DNA of 64,000 bases from Brachionus manjavacas. Taxonomy: Eukaryota; Rotifera; Eurotatoria; Ploima; Brachionidae. Both the position numbers and the translations under genes were made by a program. The notes beneath the pieces are model-generated. The model was not told where the DNA came from and ran no database searches. It was given only the letters and a program-made list of their open reading frames with translations. The stretch lies in contig JAHQIY010000007.1 of NCBI GenBank assembly GCA_019054805.1, positions 2,609,501 to 2,673,500 of the forward strand. The letters are read 5' to 3'. This document shows positions 29,674-37,342 of this stretch, one piece after another (the first letter of the stretch is position 1; each line of letters begins with the position of its first letter).

Positions 29674-30483
29674 ATGCAAACAATTTTGAGAACCGGATTT
29701 GGAGTCTTGATGACCAAGTCTTTTTTCGAAAAAATGACTCCCAACAATGTGAAAGGTTTATTAAAAGATAAAGGATTTTGTATTATAAAAGGTTATCAAA
29801 ACATTGATCGTGATAAATTGATTAATATTTGTCAAAACTTTGGTGAATTAGAAGAATATATCGACGAGAAAAAAAAGCATAAATATATTGGACACAGACA
29901 CATATTTGAAGTTGATGGTTCACAAGAAACAAATGCTGTTAGAGGTCGTGGTGAATTGCCGATTCATGCAGATGGAGGTCTTTTAAAAAAGCAAATAGAT
30001 ATTATTGCATTATATGCGGCCAAAATGGACGGAATGAAATTTCAAGGTGGTACAGGAATAATTGATTTCAAATTAGCCCTAGAAGAAATGCCACTTCATT
30101 TAAGACGTGTTTTGGAGGAGGAAAAATTTGAAACCCTAGGATTAGAGGAGCCCTATTACTCAAATGCTTCATCTGAAGATTGGTTACACATTCCAGTTTT
30201 GACCGATCTGGGATGGACAAAAAAATGTGTCTTGTATTTTAATTATGAGGATGAAAAACTTGCTAGTTGGAAGACGCGAATCCAAGGATTTAGCCAAAAT
30301 GAGACAAAAAATTTTTTCAAAGAACTGATAAAATACTTGAAAAGTCCTCATTACTGCTATTTACATTTTTGGAAACAAGATGATCTTCTTTTGATGGATA
30401 ATAGAAGATGTATCCACTATAGAGAACCATTCAGCAAAGATGGTGAACGCATTAATCTAAGACTTCAAATGAAATATGATTAA
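29674..30483 (+). CDS. carC-like: Carbapenem synthase-like Fe(II)/2-oxoglutarate oxygenase, copy 1
   Basis: Intronless, 269 aa (bacterial CarC is 273). CarC epimerises C5 and desaturates C2-C3 of carbapenam-3-carboxylate using Fe(II), O2 and 2-oxoglutarate. The fold is the TauD/TfdA-like jelly roll. Iron ligands are visible: His98 and Asp100 in ELPIHADGG and distal His248 in RRCIHYREPF; the 2-oxoglutarate Arg is probably Arg263 in INLRLQ. The tandem Tyr pair YY (161-162) aligns with the CarC region holding Tyr165, the proposed hydrogen donor in epimerisation, and Tyr62 aligns with CarC Tyr67. CarC-like blocks GFG, FQGGT, EMPLHLRRVLEEE.FE and DLGWTKK run the whole length, so this is closer to CarC than to generic TauD. 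AATAAA lies at about 30567. It converges on copy 2. Confidence 0.9.
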   Translation: MQTILRTGFGVLMTKSFFEKMTPNNVKGLLKDKGFCIIKGYQNIDRDKLINICQNFGELEEYIDEKKKHKYIGHRHIFEVDGSQETNAVRGRGELPIHADGGLLKKQIDIIALYAAKMDGMKFQGGTGIIDFKLALEEMPLHLRRVLEEEKFETLGLEEPYYSNASSEDWLHIPVLTDLGWTKKCVLYFNYEDEKLASWKTRIQGFSQNETKNFFKELIKYLKSPHYCYLHFWKQDDLLLMDNRRCIHYREPFSKDGERINLRLQMKYD

Positions 30484-30850
30484 ATTATCTATTTTTTATC
30501 TTGTATACTTTTTTATTGACTGAATTATCATTCAAGAAAATTTGATTAGCAATTTTTTTTAAAAAGAATAAAGTATTATCATCATTTGATGTTTTTTTTA
30601 TTTTTAAAAAATAGACACTATCTGTCAAAAATTTATCTTTAGAAAATTAACTATTGAATAGTTATTTGTTTTTGGCTAAAATTCATTTTTATTAAGCAAT
30701 TCTATAAAAATCAAATATATCCTAACATCATATTTTTTTTATTTGTTTTTTTTAAATTAAACTTAATTCTAATTTTAAATAATAAGAGAAAAAAAATGAA
30801 ATTGTTAAATTTTTTTATTAAAATACTGAATTTATAAATAAAATAAAAGT
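30484..30850. other. Convergent 3' region between CarC-like copies 1 and 2
   Basis: 367 bp of AT-rich sequence with polyadenylation-type signals for both strands (AATAAA at 30567; TTTATT at 30824, i.e. AATAAA on minus). No other content seen. Confidence 0.6.
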
Positions 30851-31651
30851 TTAATCTTCTATCGTTTGGACTCTTGAAATAATTCGTTTGCCAACATCAT
30901 CAAAAGGCTCTCTAGCATGGATTGAATTACGATTGTCCATTATAAGCAAGTCACCCTTTTGCCACATATGAGTATAGCAATATCTGTACTTTCTGAAAAA
31001 ATCGTCTAGCTCTTTGAAAAAGCGATCTGTTTCTTTTCTTGAAAAGTCAAGTATTCTTGTCTCCCATCCAGGATTGGGAAAATTTTCATCAAAATTAAAA
31101 TAGCAAAAAAATTGCCGCGTCCATCCGTAGTCTTTAAAGACTGGAACTTTGAACCAATTTTTCGGTGATGCTTCAGAATAATACTCTCTATCGAATACAT
31201 TAGATTCGAAGGTTTCTTCATCAAGCACTCGTTTCAGATGTGGAGGCATTTCTTCGAGAGCTAGTTTCAAATCTACTACAGTCGTGGCACCTTGAAATTT
31301 TAAATTCTCAATTTCATTTGCATATAAAAATACATGATCCACTCTAGTCTGCACCAAACCGCCATCTGCATGCAACGGCAAAATTTCTCTACCATTGACA
31401 ATTTTATTTTTAGAGCCATCCAATTTGAAGACGTCTTTGTACCCATAGCCGACTTTTTTTTCTTGATCATGGTTCACAATTTTTCCAAACCCTTTGCACA
31501 TATCGACCAAATTTTTGTCATCGTAGTCAAGATTTTTTACCAGAATAAAGCCTTTATCCATCAACAAACCCTTTAAGTACTTTCCATTTAGCTTTTCAAA
31601 GGTGCTTTTCTGAATCAAACAGCCAAAGCCTGAGCGAAGAATCGACTGCAT
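30851..31651 (-). CDS. carC-like: Carbapenem synthase-like Fe(II)/2-oxoglutarate oxygenase, copy 2
   Basis: Intronless, 266 aa. Of the three copies this one reads closest to bacterial CarC by eye: KIVNGREILPLHADGGLV, QGATTVVDLKLALEEMPPHL, EYYSEASPKNWFKVPVF and GDLLIMDNRNSIHAREPF. Iron ligands are His94, Asp96 and His245; Arg260 near the C terminus is the likely 2-oxoglutarate anchor. The Tyr157-Tyr158 pair matches the CarC Tyr165 region. The CarC Tyr67 position is His61 here. It is transcribed away from the CarA-CarB fusion gene with only 214 bp between start codons, so they probably share a promoter region. An acceptor-like ttctttaag ends 8 nt before its ATG, suggesting a 5' UTR intron or trans-splice site. 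Confidence 0.9.
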   Translation of the reverse strand: MQSILRSGFGCLIQKSTFEKLNGKYLKGLLMDKGFILVKNLDYDDKNLVDMCKGFGKIVNHDQEKKVGYGYKDVFKLDGSKNKIVNGREILPLHADGGLVQTRVDHVFLYANEIENLKFQGATTVVDLKLALEEMPPHLKRVLDEETFESNVFDREYYSEASPKNWFKVPVFKDYGWTRQFFCYFNFDENFPNPGWETRILDFSRKETDRFFKELDDFFRKYRYCYTHMWQKGDLLIMDNRNSIHAREPFDDVGKRIISRVQTIED

Positions 31652-31865
31652 TTTAAAATCTTAAAGAAAAAATAAAAAAATTCAAAAAAATGAAATTGTT
31701 TTTATTAAAAATTTATCTTATCGTCTCATTAAATCGTAAGATTAAGCTATCTTCTATTAATCATAAGAGCACAAAGTTAAAAAAGATATTTTTTTTATTA
31801 ATTTCGACGATTTATTTGAATTTAAATTTATTCTTAAAATTTCATAAGAAAACATTAAAAACAAA
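31652..31865. promoter_or_regulatory. Bidirectional promoter region of CarC-like copy 2 and carA-carB fusion
   Basis: Only 214 bp separate the two divergent start codons. The interval is AT-rich, with no bacterial-style ribosome-binding site. No TATA box or known factor site can be assigned with confidence. The geometry implies coordinated expression of ring-forming and ring-desaturating activities. Confidence 0.5.
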
Positions 31866-34286
31866 ATGCTTTTAAAACAACTATATTCAATCCGAAAGCC
31901 TATTTGGACTTCGTACAGATGCTTCAACTCGTTTATTATTAAGCAGAATAGAGTTGAATGCGATGTCCACTTTGAAGAAATGATGAAAAAGGCCAAAACC
32001 ATCTCAGAGCAGTCAACATTAAAAACATATAATTTTAAAGATTTGTCAATTTGTCTCTATTCAAATCGAAATTTAGACAAACAAATGGACTATTATGTCC
32101 ATTTAAATGGAGATAATAGCTCGTCTTTTTTGGTCGGAAGAGTTAATAATGAAGCAGTTCTAAGGACAAAAATAAGTGACTATGAAAATTGTCAGAATTT
32201 AAAAGGTGCAAAGCTAATAAGTCACTTGGTCAGTGAATATGGAACATCAGCTTTTAACATGATTGAAGGATCATATTGTTTCATAACCATAAACCTTAGA
32301 AATGACACAATAGAGACTTATTCTGATAGTATTGGACTAATGCCGACCTATTTTGCCAACCAGCTGGGCTCGACATGGATTTTCAATGAAGCAAAAGTAT
32401 TCGCAGCTAACCCATTAACCAATTTAAAGCTCAAGCCGTTCTCTGATTTAGATCTTAGCTCATTAGACCATCCAAGTGATTTTACCTGTTTTGAAAATGT
32501 TTTCAAAGTTCCCAAAGGGTTTGGGCTAAAAGTAGACCGAGATGGAAATGCGAATGTAAATGAAAATTATTTTGAGCTAAAACCTTCCCATTACTCCAAC
32601 AAAAACAACCAAAATAAGCTTGAATTTTTCCAAGATTCATTAAGAACAATTTTGGAAAATTCAATAAAAAATTCGCTTAATGAAAGCAAGGAACCATGCT
32701 TGCTTTTGTCCGGCGGTCTGGACTCAAGTCTTATCACGGCAATGGCTAGACCTCATGTGCAAAATTTGACCACAATTTCAGTCGGCACTCAATACTCAAA
32801 CGAATTCAAATGGGCCAAAATGGTATCTGATTTTGTTGGTACACGTCATCATGAACTTGTCCTAGATAACGAAAAAGTAATTAATGGAATTATAAGATCT
32901 TCTTATGAGAACGAAATTTTCGACGGTTTTTCAGCCGAAGTTCAATCTCCTCTCTACAATCTAATGGAATATGTCAAAAGCTTGAATGGCAATACAGTTT
33001 TGACAGGCTATGGCGCTGACTTGCTTTTCGGTGGCATAATACCTTTGGATACAGATGTCAATTTGGTTAACAAAATTCTAGACGAGCAAATTAAGCGTAC
33101 AAGGTGGACTGGGGAGTTTTCGCCATTTATTGGCAACAAATTTGGCATCACAATCGAACACCCATTTTGGAACAAAAATTTAATTTCATTTGCCATTTCC
33201 TTAGATGGCGAATACAAAAAAAATGCCAAAGAAGTGAAAATTATTCTAAGAGAAATGGCCGAAAAGTTCAAGTATTTGCCCAAAGAAATTGTTTGGAGAA
33301 AAAAATTGGGTATTAACGAAGCAGCGTCGATAAATCACGTGTTCGCCAATTATCTTGGTTTGGCTAGTGAAATAAAAAAAAATGACTATCGCCTCAAAAA
33401 TTTATTTATTTACAATGTTTTTAAGGAAATGTTTGAAAATAAGCAACCAGTTGAGTCATTAGATATCAGCGCTGTAGCCAAAAAAACCTCTGATCATTTT
33501 AGCAGCTATCCACAATCGAAAAATTACAATGGATTAGTTGATGTTCAAATTAAAGATAAAATAATGATTGTAAGCTTTGTCCACCCGAATAGACACAACC
33601 CTCTGGGCTATGAGATGAGAAAATATTTAAAGGAGATTTTCACAATGGCTGATTCGAATTCTGAAGTGGATGCAATTGTTTTAACTGGTGGAATAGGGCG
33701 CTCTTTCAGTGCTGGTGGAGACTTTAATGAGGTAAAAAACCTGGACTCGACAGAAAAAGTTAATTCTTTTATAGATGACATTTACGATTTTTATATTTCT
33801 GCCTTGAAAATTTCCAAACCAACAATCGCAGCTGTAGACAATCATGCGATCGGAATTGGATTTCAACTAGCTTTGTGTTGTGACATCAGAATTGGAACAA
33901 CAAGATGCTCGTTTACTTTGCCTGAGTTAAAGCATGGTCTTAGTTGTACAGTTGGATCTTGCATGCTGCATCATTGTTACGGGCATTTATTTTCCACAAA
34001 GACAATATATGAATGCGAACCGATCAAATCAAAAGAGCTTATTGAATCAAAACTAGTCAGTAGTTTGGTGGAGCCTGACGAACTTGTTAACCAAGCTTTT
34101 AAAATGGCCAAAATTTATGCCAAGTATCCAAAGAATGCTTTTAAAAATACCAAAATGTCTACAAACAAACGATTCATAAAAGCTTTAGAGGACTCTATTG
34201 AGGACAGCAAAGTTGCTCATAGATCATCTTTGTTGAGCAAAGAAAACGAACAGCACTTCAAAAAAATTTTAAAAGATAAATACTAA
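31866..34286 (+). CDS. carAB-like: Carbapenam synthetase-carboxymethylproline synthase fusion
   Basis: Intronless, 806 aa, one uninterrupted frame. Residues 1-30 contain basic residues and no Asp/Glu (RKPIWTSYRCFNSFIIKQNR), like a mitochondrial presequence. About 31-535 is CarA: an Ntn-like N domain without a catalytic Cys at position 2, then the ATP-pyrophosphatase loop SGGLDSS (282-288). Tyr382 (LTGYGADLLFGG), Glu417 (TRWTGEF) and Lys480 (IVWRKKLG) occupy the CarA Tyr345/Glu380/Lys443 positions with identical spacing of 35 and 63 residues. About 558-806 is CarB, a crotonase: oxyanion-hole segment SFSAGGDFNEVK (Gly617-Gly618), IGIGFQ, Glu687 in LPELKHG (CarB Glu131), and a CarB-like C terminus KKILKDKY. 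CarB makes carboxymethylproline from malonyl-CoA and pyrroline-5-carboxylate; CarA closes the beta-lactam with ATP. The fusion could channel the intermediate. Codon use is as AT-rich as that of the neighbours. Confidence 0.95.
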   Translation: MLLKQLYSIRKPIWTSYRCFNSFIIKQNRVECDVHFEEMMKKAKTISEQSTLKTYNFKDLSICLYSNRNLDKQMDYYVHLNGDNSSSFLVGRVNNEAVLRTKISDYENCQNLKGAKLISHLVSEYGTSAFNMIEGSYCFITINLRNDTIETYSDSIGLMPTYFANQLGSTWIFNEAKVFAANPLTNLKLKPFSDLDLSSLDHPSDFTCFENVFKVPKGFGLKVDRDGNANVNENYFELKPSHYSNKNNQNKLEFFQDSLRTILENSIKNSLNESKEPCLLLSGGLDSSLITAMARPHVQNLTTISVGTQYSNEFKWAKMVSDFVGTRHHELVLDNEKVINGIIRSSYENEIFDGFSAEVQSPLYNLMEYVKSLNGNTVLTGYGADLLFGGIIPLDTDVNLVNKILDEQIKRTRWTGEFSPFIGNKFGITIEHPFWNKNLISFAISLDGEYKKNAKEVKIILREMAEKFKYLPKEIVWRKKLGINEAASINHVFANYLGLASEIKKNDYRLKNLFIYNVFKEMFENKQPVESLDISAVAKKTSDHFSSYPQSKNYNGLVDVQIKDKIMIVSFVHPNRHNPLGYEMRKYLKEIFTMADSNSEVDAIVLTGGIGRSFSAGGDFNEVKNLDSTEKVNSFIDDIYDFYISALKISKPTIAAVDNHAIGIGFQLALCCDIRIGTTRCSFTLPELKHGLSCTVGSCMLHHCYGHLFSTKTIYECEPIKSKELIESKLVSSLVEPDELVNQAFKMAKIYAKYPKNAFKNTKMSTNKRFIKALEDSIEDSKVAHRSSLLSKENEQHFKKILKDKY

Positions 34287-34439
34287 AACTAGACTAAAAA
34301 TTAAAATTATAGCCTATCTTCACTTTTCAGTTTATAATTAAATGATAAAAAAAAATTTTCTTTATGATTAATTTGTCACGTAAAAATGACATCTAATTTA
34401 TTTTTTCCACTTATAAAAATTAAAGCTTAATTTTAGTTC

Positions 34440-35246
34440 ATGATGCAATCAGTTCTGAAATATGGTTTTGGCCTAAAGGCGAGTAGATCAATTTTCGAAA
34501 AACTATCACCTTCGGTGGTCAAAGGAATGATTAAAGATAAAGGTTTTATTTTGGTCAATGATGTGAATTACACTAGAGAATCATTTGCTGAGATGGCATC
34601 TAAATATGGAAATTTGATAAAGTTCGCACAGGAAACTAGACCTGGGATGAAAAGCAATCAAGTTCTTGATCTTGATGGAAACTCAGAGCGCCTTGTGTCT
34701 GGTAGAGCCGAGTTGCCGTTGCATTCAGATGGAAATATTCTAAAAACCAATGTAGATCTTGTGTTTTTGTATGCAGATGAAATAAAAAATCTAAAGTATC
34801 AAGGTGGAACTACAATTGTTGATTTCAAGAAAGCGCTAGACCAAATGCCTCCTCATCTTAAAAATGTTTTAGATGAGGAGCAGTTTGAGACTTTGGGAAT
34901 CGAAAAAGGCTACTATCCCGAAGGAGTTGAACCATATTGGTTTCAAATGGATACTTACAATGATAGAGGATGGATAAAACAATTTAATATATATTTGAAC
35001 TATAAGGAAAAATCTCAGGGAATTAGTTGGATCACTAGGTTGAGAGGATTTAGTGAATCCGAGAATGAAAGATTTTTTGATGAACTTGATAAGTATTTTA
35101 GAAAGTACGAGCATTCTTATTTGCATTATTGGAAAAAGGGAGATTTGATAATTATGGACAATAGACGAGTACTACATGCGAGACAATCTTTTGATAAAGA
35201 ATCCACTCGTCTTATTTTTAGGATTCAGCTTTCGGAGCCTATTTAG
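34440..35246 (+). CDS. carC-like: Carbapenem synthase-like Fe(II)/2-oxoglutarate oxygenase, copy 3
   Basis: Intronless, 268 aa, 153 nt downstream of the fusion gene on the same strand. Iron ligands are His95 and Asp97 in ELPLHSDGN (the other copies read HADGG) and His246 in RRVLHARQSF; Arg261 is the likely 2-oxoglutarate Arg. The Tyr158-Tyr159 pair matches CarC Tyr165. The CarC Tyr67 position is Phe62. It is the most divergent copy in the active-site entrance (HSDGN and a KEKS loop), so it may use a modified substrate or have lost part of the two-step reaction. An acceptor-like aattttag lies 3 nt before the ATG, and the short gap to the fusion gene would allow one polycistronic transcript resolved by trans-splicing. 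Confidence 0.88.
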   Translation: MMQSVLKYGFGLKASRSIFEKLSPSVVKGMIKDKGFILVNDVNYTRESFAEMASKYGNLIKFAQETRPGMKSNQVLDLDGNSERLVSGRAELPLHSDGNILKTNVDLVFLYADEIKNLKYQGGTTIVDFKKALDQMPPHLKNVLDEEQFETLGIEKGYYPEGVEPYWFQMDTYNDRGWIKQFNIYLNYKEKSQGISWITRLRGFSESENERFFDELDKYFRKYEHSYLHYWKKGDLIIMDNRRVLHARQSFDKESTRLIFRIQLSEPI

Positions 35247-36132: not shown

Positions 36133-36328
36133 TTATTTTGAAAGTACAGTATTTTTTTTATCTATTTGTTTTCTAACCGAGTCAATATATCCTGATTCAA
36201 AATCTTCTCTGTATTCCTCCACTAGTCTGACAATCACTGAAATAGAATGACTCAGTCCTGTCCCAACATATCTCTCACTCAACTCAAAAACCAGATTCGA
36301 GACTGTTAGTAATTTAAGTTTATTAAAA
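36133..36328 (-). mobile_element. 3' end of an older minus-strand LINE, left part, containing direct-repeat copy 1
   Basis: The minus-strand frame encodes NKLKLLTVSNLVFELSERYV, GLSHSISVIVRLVEEYRE and a stop at 36133, typical of the C terminus of a non-LTR reverse transcriptase. The stretch 36184-36328 is repeated at 37343-37487 with 2 differences in 145 bp. The same ORF continues in the right copy towards higher coordinates, so one older element has been split by the plus-strand LINE insertion at 36329-37342. Confidence 0.75.
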
Positions 36329-37342
36329 TTATTGATATTTGTATTATTGATATTTGTGGGACTTATGGGAATAAATGGAGAATAAAATTTAACCCTAATA
36401 AAACAAAAATTGTTAACTTTGGCATTCAATTATTTAAGTCGGTATTTCACCTTATTGGATCCGAACTTAAAGAAGAAAATCAGTTAGAATACTTAGGATT
36501 CATTATAGATTCTAATCTTGACTTTAACACACAGGCAATAATAAATTTTAAAAAAGTTCAGAGCAGCTTTTTTGGAATTTCGTATCTTCTGCCTAAAAAA
36601 AGTCCTTCCTCTTCACCTAAATTAAAATCATTTATATACAAAACATATTGCTTATCTAAATTCACATATGGTCTTGAGGCTCTCACTCTTAATTCGACCA
36701 CAAAGGATTCAATAAATAAATTACAAAACAACTTAATTAGACAAATGTTTGGTTTAAAAGCCTATTGTCACATATCACGAGTCTTAAAAGTACTGAAAGT
36801 TTTCAACTTTGATGAACTTTATCTATTTTCAAAACTAACTTTTATTGATACAATTAAATATAATTATCTATCATCACAATTTTTAAAATATATGCTTAAT
36901 GACCCCCCCTCTAATAAATCTTTTTCCTCTGACTTGGTTCTTATTTCCAAGTACTTTAAAATTGAAACCTCAAAAATTACAGTAAACACAAACCAACTTA
37001 AAGAAAATTTTAAGATTAATTTGATTTCTAATGATGGTATATCTGATTCAATTTGGTTATGTCTATGCAATTTAAAATTATAACATTTCAGAACTCTCCT
37101 AAACGAGCTAATTCAAAATAAAAGAAATTCATGAATTTTGGTCCAAATTATCTTGCTTTCTAACTTTCATGCCTTTTTCTATTTTCGAACTAATGTTCCT
37201 TTTTTATTTTTTGTAATTTTATTTTTAGGTAATAATTTTTCATTTTTTAAAAAACACAAAAAATCTTTTTATTTATTTTTTTTATTTTTTTTTTACTTCT
37301 CCTTAAAGGAGGTTAATTCAATTCAATAAATAAATAAAAATA
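36329..37342 (+). mobile_element. 5'-truncated plus-strand LINE inserted into an older LINE
   Basis: An open frame from about 36361 to 37083 encodes the reverse-transcriptase thumb region: WRIKFNPNKTKIVNFG, then QLEYLGFIIDSNLDF, SKFTYGLEALTL and LQNNLIRQMFGL. The 3' part ends with a small stem-loop (CTCCTTAAAGGAG) and an (aataa)n-type tail just before 37343. The element is bounded by the 145-bp direct repeat. The catalytic palm with the Asp-Asp motif is missing, so this copy is dead. Confidence 0.8.

Follow-up and report, generated by a model that had tools for sequence, protein, structure and literature searches.

A cassette of four adjacent, intronless genes in the genome of the rotifer Brachionus manjavacas encodes a fused CarA–CarB protein and three CarC-type oxygenases. 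We consider it likely, on sequence grounds, that this set is a bacterial carABC-type pathway that was acquired by a rotifer ancestor and has been kept as a working carbapenem pathway. The cassette occupies positions 29674–35246 of the stretch analyzed here (the window; 64,000 nucleotides, C7:2609501–2673500), which lies in contig C7 (6.37 Mb) of a 114-Mb genome in 61 contigs. A preceding sequence-only reading had described four adjacent intronless genes covering CarA, CarB and CarC, the last in three copies. The frames are found in that place with Car enzymes as their best matches, and carA, carB and carC are adjacent, as expected of a car cluster. From stop to stop, the frames span 284, 269, 812 and 269 residues. 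When the bases of the window were shuffled 50 times and each shuffle was read in three forward frames, the longest frame obtained was 147 residues, and chance frames are rejected as an explanation.

Counted from the first methionine, the coding sequence of the fusion (31866..34286, plus strand) is a single continuous frame. Its CarA part, corresponding to carbapenam synthetase (31866..33485, plus; residues 1–540), includes an N-terminal extension of about 21 residues, and its CarB part, corresponding to carboxymethylproline synthase (33534..34286, plus; residues 557–806 and the stop), shares the frame of CarA. CarC1 (29674..30483, plus; 269 residues) and CarC2 (30851..31651, minus; 266 residues) precede the fusion, and CarC3 (34440..35246, plus; 268 residues) follows it. 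A 214-bp spacer (31652..31865) separates the divergent starts of CarC2 and CarA–CarB; its G+C content is 0.16 (measured on 31655–31865), and it is likely to be a shared promoter region. Searches of the 114-Mb genome, which score the best candidates only, returned CarC matches at the three cassette places alone. For the fused query they gave a full-length match at its own gene and seven weak ones (E values 4.6e-17 to 3.6e-4) in crotonase-like or asparagine-synthetase-like frames. An Rfam scan of the window gave no match.

Compared with all solved structures, the fused protein is most similar to CarA (1q15, E 1.5e-74) and CarB (2a7k, E 9.3e-61), followed by ThnE (8e-42), beta-lactam synthetase (3.6e-29), crotonase (1.3e-22) and asparagine synthetase B (8.8e-20). 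Pfam recognizes superfamilies only in the cassette proteins (Asn_synthase, ECH_1, ECH_2, GATase_7, TauD), and no NCBIfam model reached its cut-off among those listed (for the fusion, 25 of 76 models). In the CarA tree, built by a careful method from 48 of 49 rows (L014 dropped out), the window protein groups with the fused proteins P0021–P0024 at 100/100, then with the fused protein P0025 at 99/96, and 23 rows of bacterial CarA join them at 95/90. Outside this clade fall the asparagine synthetases and the Streptomyces synthetases. Rows L015, L018 and L021 in the clade were translated in the wrong frame and are to be disregarded; a quick-method tree without those loci gives the same order. By both structure match and tree, the CarA part thus lies closer to CarA than to either beta-lactam synthetase or asparagine synthetase. 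Tyr345, Glu380 and Lys443, which we take to be the catalytic residues of CarA, are kept at residues 382, 417 and 480 of the fusion. Of 101 CarA columns conserved in bacteria, 81 carry the bacterial residue in the window protein as well.

The model of the fused protein has a mean predicted local distance difference test score (pLDDT) of 83.9 and a predicted template-modeling score of 0.66, the relative placing of the two parts not being reliable. The best match to its first part is carbapenam synthetase, with a template-modeling (TM) score by target of 0.90 (beta-lactam synthetase, 0.85–0.86), and the best match to the second is CarB (TM 0.93–0.95; ThnE, 0.91–0.93). Residues 1–17 have no confident structure in the model. 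The N-terminus is basic and has no more than one acidic residue among 32, and its amphipathicity is 0.57–0.74, compared with 0.32 in P0025. The start is alike in P0021, P0022 and P0024. By these simple features the extension looks like a mitochondrial presequence.

In the CarB part, 97 of 245 aligned residues are identical to CarB. It joins bacterial CarB at 98/96 in a tree of 26 rows, one of which (own_L028) is a long branch, and ThnE, the fungal domains described below and ordinary crotonases lie outside the clade. Of the CarB residues Gly62, Met108, Gln111, Glu131 and His229, four are kept and Met108 is replaced by Ile.

All three oxygenases match the CarC structure 1nx4 by wide margins: CarC1 at E 1.3e-69 (best non-CarC structure, 1.6e-7), CarC2 at 7e-85 (5.1e-8) and CarC3 at 7.5e-61 (2.1e-7). 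CarC2, the copy nearest bacterial CarC, is 47–54% identical to its bacterial relatives, and CarC3 is the most divergent. Each copy has His101, Asp103, His251 and Arg263, the iron/2-oxoglutarate residues of CarC, and Tyr165, its inversion tyrosine (as described in part of PMC6097109); Thr130, Trp202, Arg253 and Arg267 are likewise present in all three. Of the 49 rows in the CarC tree, nine are of rotifer type; they group together at 100/97, in a clade with bacterial CarC, the remaining 40 standing beside them. We call P0002, P0013, P0022–P0024, P0182 and P0192 rotifer-type because of their placement in the trees. Within this group, window CarC2, P0001, P0002 and P0013 form one subgroup and window CarC1 and CarC3, P0190, P0182 and P0192 a second, and an 84-row quick tree gives the same split. 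The two subgroups imply a duplication that predates the split from the P0182 lineage, although the long branch of CarC3 calls for caution. The CarC3 model (pLDDT 90.3) has CarC in all eight of its best PDB matches (TM by query 0.88–0.93), and no non-CarC structure exceeds TM 0.75 among the 50 matches listed. In P0192 the inversion tyrosine is replaced by Phe, which hints at a change of function in that copy.

Structure-match margins, trees and catalytic residues together reject mere superfamily membership. The sequence-only reading had claimed similarity to CarA, CarB and CarC themselves and had proposed trees as the test; each part falls inside its carbapenem family, and generic asparagine synthetases and enoyl-CoA hydratases lie apart from it.

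The known chemistry, as given in part of PMC6097109, converts malonyl-CoA and pyrroline-5-carboxylate to carboxymethylproline, then to carbapenam and finally to carbapenem through CarB, CarA and CarC. In the rotifer, carboxymethylproline would be formed by the CarB part, which would decarboxylate malonyl-CoA and couple it with pyrroline-5-carboxylate. The CarA part would then close the beta-lactam ring with ATP to form (3S,5S)-carbapenam-3-carboxylate, and at least one of the three CarC copies would invert C-5 and desaturate C2–C3 to yield the (5R)-carbapenem. The three copies may divide inversion and desaturation between them or may carry out further tailoring. The fusion would probably ease the hand-over of carboxymethylproline between the CarB and CarA parts. 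Animals make pyrroline-5-carboxylate in mitochondria, from which we infer import of the fused enzyme, and the N-terminal extension would probably route it there. Such a pathway would likely serve to keep bacteria in check in the gut, on the eggs or in the surrounding water; peptidoglycan, which such a compound would damage, is absent from animal cells. A wider proposal, which we find somewhat less likely than not, is that monogonont rotifers make a family of carbapenems of their own and use it to manage bacteria. An ancestral transfer would have supplied a fused carboxymethylproline/carbapenam synthase, later routed to the mitochondrion as the site where its substrate is made, and CarC would have multiplied into specialized copies.

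Several observations weigh against a working carbapenem pathway. The Pfam domain CarA_N (PF09147), recognized in P0026, is not recognized in the window protein, P0024 or P0025, and in the window protein the region is assigned to GATase_7 instead; we read this as divergence of a non-catalytic N-terminal domain, because the tree and the remaining evidence agree. Twenty of the 101 bacterially conserved CarA columns differ in the window. The fold scores separate CarA from beta-lactam synthetase, and CarB from ThnE, only weakly. CarC1 and CarC3 are divergent, and CarB positions 79 and 108 have changed from Trp to Phe and from Met to Ile. The N-termini of two bacterial CarA proteins have amphipathicities of 0.49–0.52, little below that of the fusion. 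Finally, carA, carB, carC, carD, carE and carH are described in part of PMC6813493 as conserved genes required for synthesis, and carF and carG as immunity genes; carD, carE, carF, carG and carH are not among the four cassette genes, no genome-wide search for them having been made.

The alternative that best survives, though we judge it unlikely, is that the genes are active but yield something other than the simple carbapenem. With a changed CarB pocket and three CarC copies, the pathway may make substituted carbapenams or carbapenems, or may stop at a carbapenam. In CarB variants the two changed positions direct substrate and stereochemistry, and variants with Ile at position 108 are active (both from part of PMC6542682). 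The two old CarC subgroups, and the loss of Tyr165 in P0192, point the same way. Against this, the CarC catalytic set, Tyr165 included, is complete in all three window copies, and CarC2 lies near its bacterial counterparts. Considerably less probable is that the enzymes serve some other use, such as the metabolism of proline or amino-acid derivatives, with no beta-lactam made. The changed CarA columns and the accessory and immunity genes missing from the cassette would fit such a use, but the whole set occurs together and the residues for all three steps, including ring closure and CarC inversion, are kept.

The best protein matches come from the monogonont rotifer Brachionus plicatilis, whose orthologues are 94–98% identical; they include P0190 for CarC1 (98% over 246 columns) and P0001 for CarC2 (95%). 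The source of P0001, of P0021 and of P0190 is in each case a contig of 27,990 bp, which indicates clustering in B. plicatilis too and answers the suggestion that the genes be sought in related rotifers. These orthologues carry the public name 'spore coat', a misnomer without support whose likely source is a Paraburkholderia CarC relative (P0162) named CotH. More distant fused proteins are 87% (P0022), 56% (P0023), 51% (P0024) and 40% (P0025) identical. Across the five rotifer-type fusions, the bacterially conserved CarA columns are constant more often than other columns (85 constant to 16 variable versus 119 to 257, p = 8e-22), which speaks for selection on a like function.

The cassette sits inside its 6.37-Mb contig with animal genes around it. 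A Pfam family was found in seven of ten nearby frames scanned (ALG6/8, leucine-rich repeat, aldo-keto reductase, catalase, tetraspanin, TFIIS zinc ribbon and, just under the cut-off, mitochondrial carrier) and none in the other three. The flanks had been described as intron-bearing animal genes. The neighboring frames are animal genes; the split of the catalase over several exons is our own reading of the frames. Host-like composition, also claimed, is borne out by comparison with seven host frames: third-position G+C is 0.26–0.35 in the cassette genes and 0.25–0.59 in the host frames, and codon usage correlates with the pooled host frames at 0.60–0.91 (host leave-one-out, 0.12–0.86). Just downstream of the cassette (36313–37083, plus), a frame without a Pfam match resembles part of a reverse transcriptase by its translation.

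Bacterial contamination or an assembly join could account for intronless genes with bacterial kin. It is very improbable given the mid-contig position, the animal neighbors, the host-like codon use and the recurrence of the set in a separate B. plicatilis record; in addition, the AT-rich fused relative P0024 and the CarC relative P0182 both come from a 558,163-bp contig. Decay of a transfer without function, to which the lack of a B. plicatilis counterpart of CarC3 among the matches listed might point, is hardly credible given four intact frames, a fused protein that is unbroken in relatives with as little as 51% identity and the constraint on conserved CarA columns. From the chromosomal setting, the kept catalytic residues, the B. 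plicatilis orthologues and the distant fused relatives, we conclude that the cassette is an old, retained gene transfer and not contamination, in line with the sequence-only reading, which had proposed an old transfer kept by selection.

P0025, a fused CarA–CarB protein of 738 residues without a presequence-like start, is sister to the rotifer-type fusions; it may be bacterial in origin and a clue to the donor. A scan of GTDB contigs with two peptide patterns found 14 loci, and CarA and CarB are separate frames in the three (L010–L012) for which open reading frames were listed. Two of these, from Corallococcus exercitus (L010) and a Mycolicibacterium metagenome-assembled genome (L012), place CarA- and CarB-like genes outside gamma-proteobacteria; a CarC-like gene lies near the Mycolicibacterium locus, and the Corallococcus genome has no CarC match. 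The carA and carB genes of Citrobacter share a four-base overlap, from which fusion would need little change. In the order to which Citrobacter belongs, two genomes out of 394 have a CarC match at E ≤ 1e-30, the centre genome itself being one of them. Among plasmids, 26 records have a CarC-like match, the one near relative (51%) being from Pantoea sp. At-9b, where carA, carB and carC are separate genes. A viral carrier was rejected, as no relative was found in viral contigs with the fused or the CarC alignment (two peptide patterns each).

The closest known system is carABC of Pectobacterium carotovorum and its relatives, which makes (5R)-carbapen-2-em-3-carboxylate and which the rotifer set resembles in all three enzymes by best match, tree and catalytic residues. 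It differs in lying on an animal chromosome, in the CarA–CarB fusion with its N-terminal extension, in the three CarC copies and, within the cassette itself, in having no carD–H. The thienamycin and clavam enzymes (ThnE, ThnM, beta-lactam synthetase) share superfamilies and reaction types with the rotifer set but match it more weakly and fall outside the clades that contain it. Fungal proteins of about 1000 residues, some from Penicillium, Monilinia and Colletotrichum, provide another eukaryotic example of fused carbapenem-type enzymes. Precomputed domains show crotonase, asparagine-synthase and TauD domains in all seven (P0073, P0074, P0076–P0080), and the two scanned have the order CarB–CarA–CarC, unlike the rotifer protein. 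They lie outside the CarB clade, and their CarA part groups with Streptomyces synthetases on long branches, so they probably represent a separate transfer; no description of these fusions was found in the open-access literature.

The beta-lactam genes of springtails and Plectus sambesii belong to the ACVS and isopenicillin N synthase (IPNS) route (part of PMC10531068), which is unrelated in chemistry, as had been stated beforehand. ACVS and IPNS are not among the four cassette genes, none of which belongs to those families; condensation domains occur on other contigs of the genome, and IPNS was not searched for genome-wide. Bdelloid rotifers have likewise acquired antibiotic-type biosynthesis genes, in clusters of nonribosomal peptide synthetase (NRPS) and polyketide synthase (PKS) type (part of PMC11258130), which differ in chemistry and rotifer group. 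We also observed large intronless PKS–NRPS genes in the B. manjavacas genome, on contig C1 at about 6712000–6768000 (L039, L040, L041). Their stop-free frames of 4867 and 4689 residues contain condensation, AMP-binding, ketoacyl synthase, acyltransferase, dehydratase and ketoreductase domains. Genes of this type are reported as absent from Brachionus calyciflorus in part of PMC10531068, and from the B. plicatilis and B. calyciflorus proteomes in part of PMC11258130.

The open-access literature, which is not the whole literature, yielded no description of an animal, rotifer or otherwise, with carbapenem genes; within that scope, the claim that no animal carbapenem pathway had been described holds. 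As far as we have seen, the kind of pathway is known, and the animal host and the fused CarA–CarB architecture are new. If the proposed pathway operates, B. manjavacas would be, as far as searches show, the first animal with a carbapenem pathway, and this would be a second, chemically independent animal route to beta-lactams. The fusion would be a new enzyme architecture in an easily cultured animal. The finding bears on natural carbapenem exposure in water, and it opens to direct test the idea that animals may use a carbapenem-class antibiotic of their own making to shape their bacteria.

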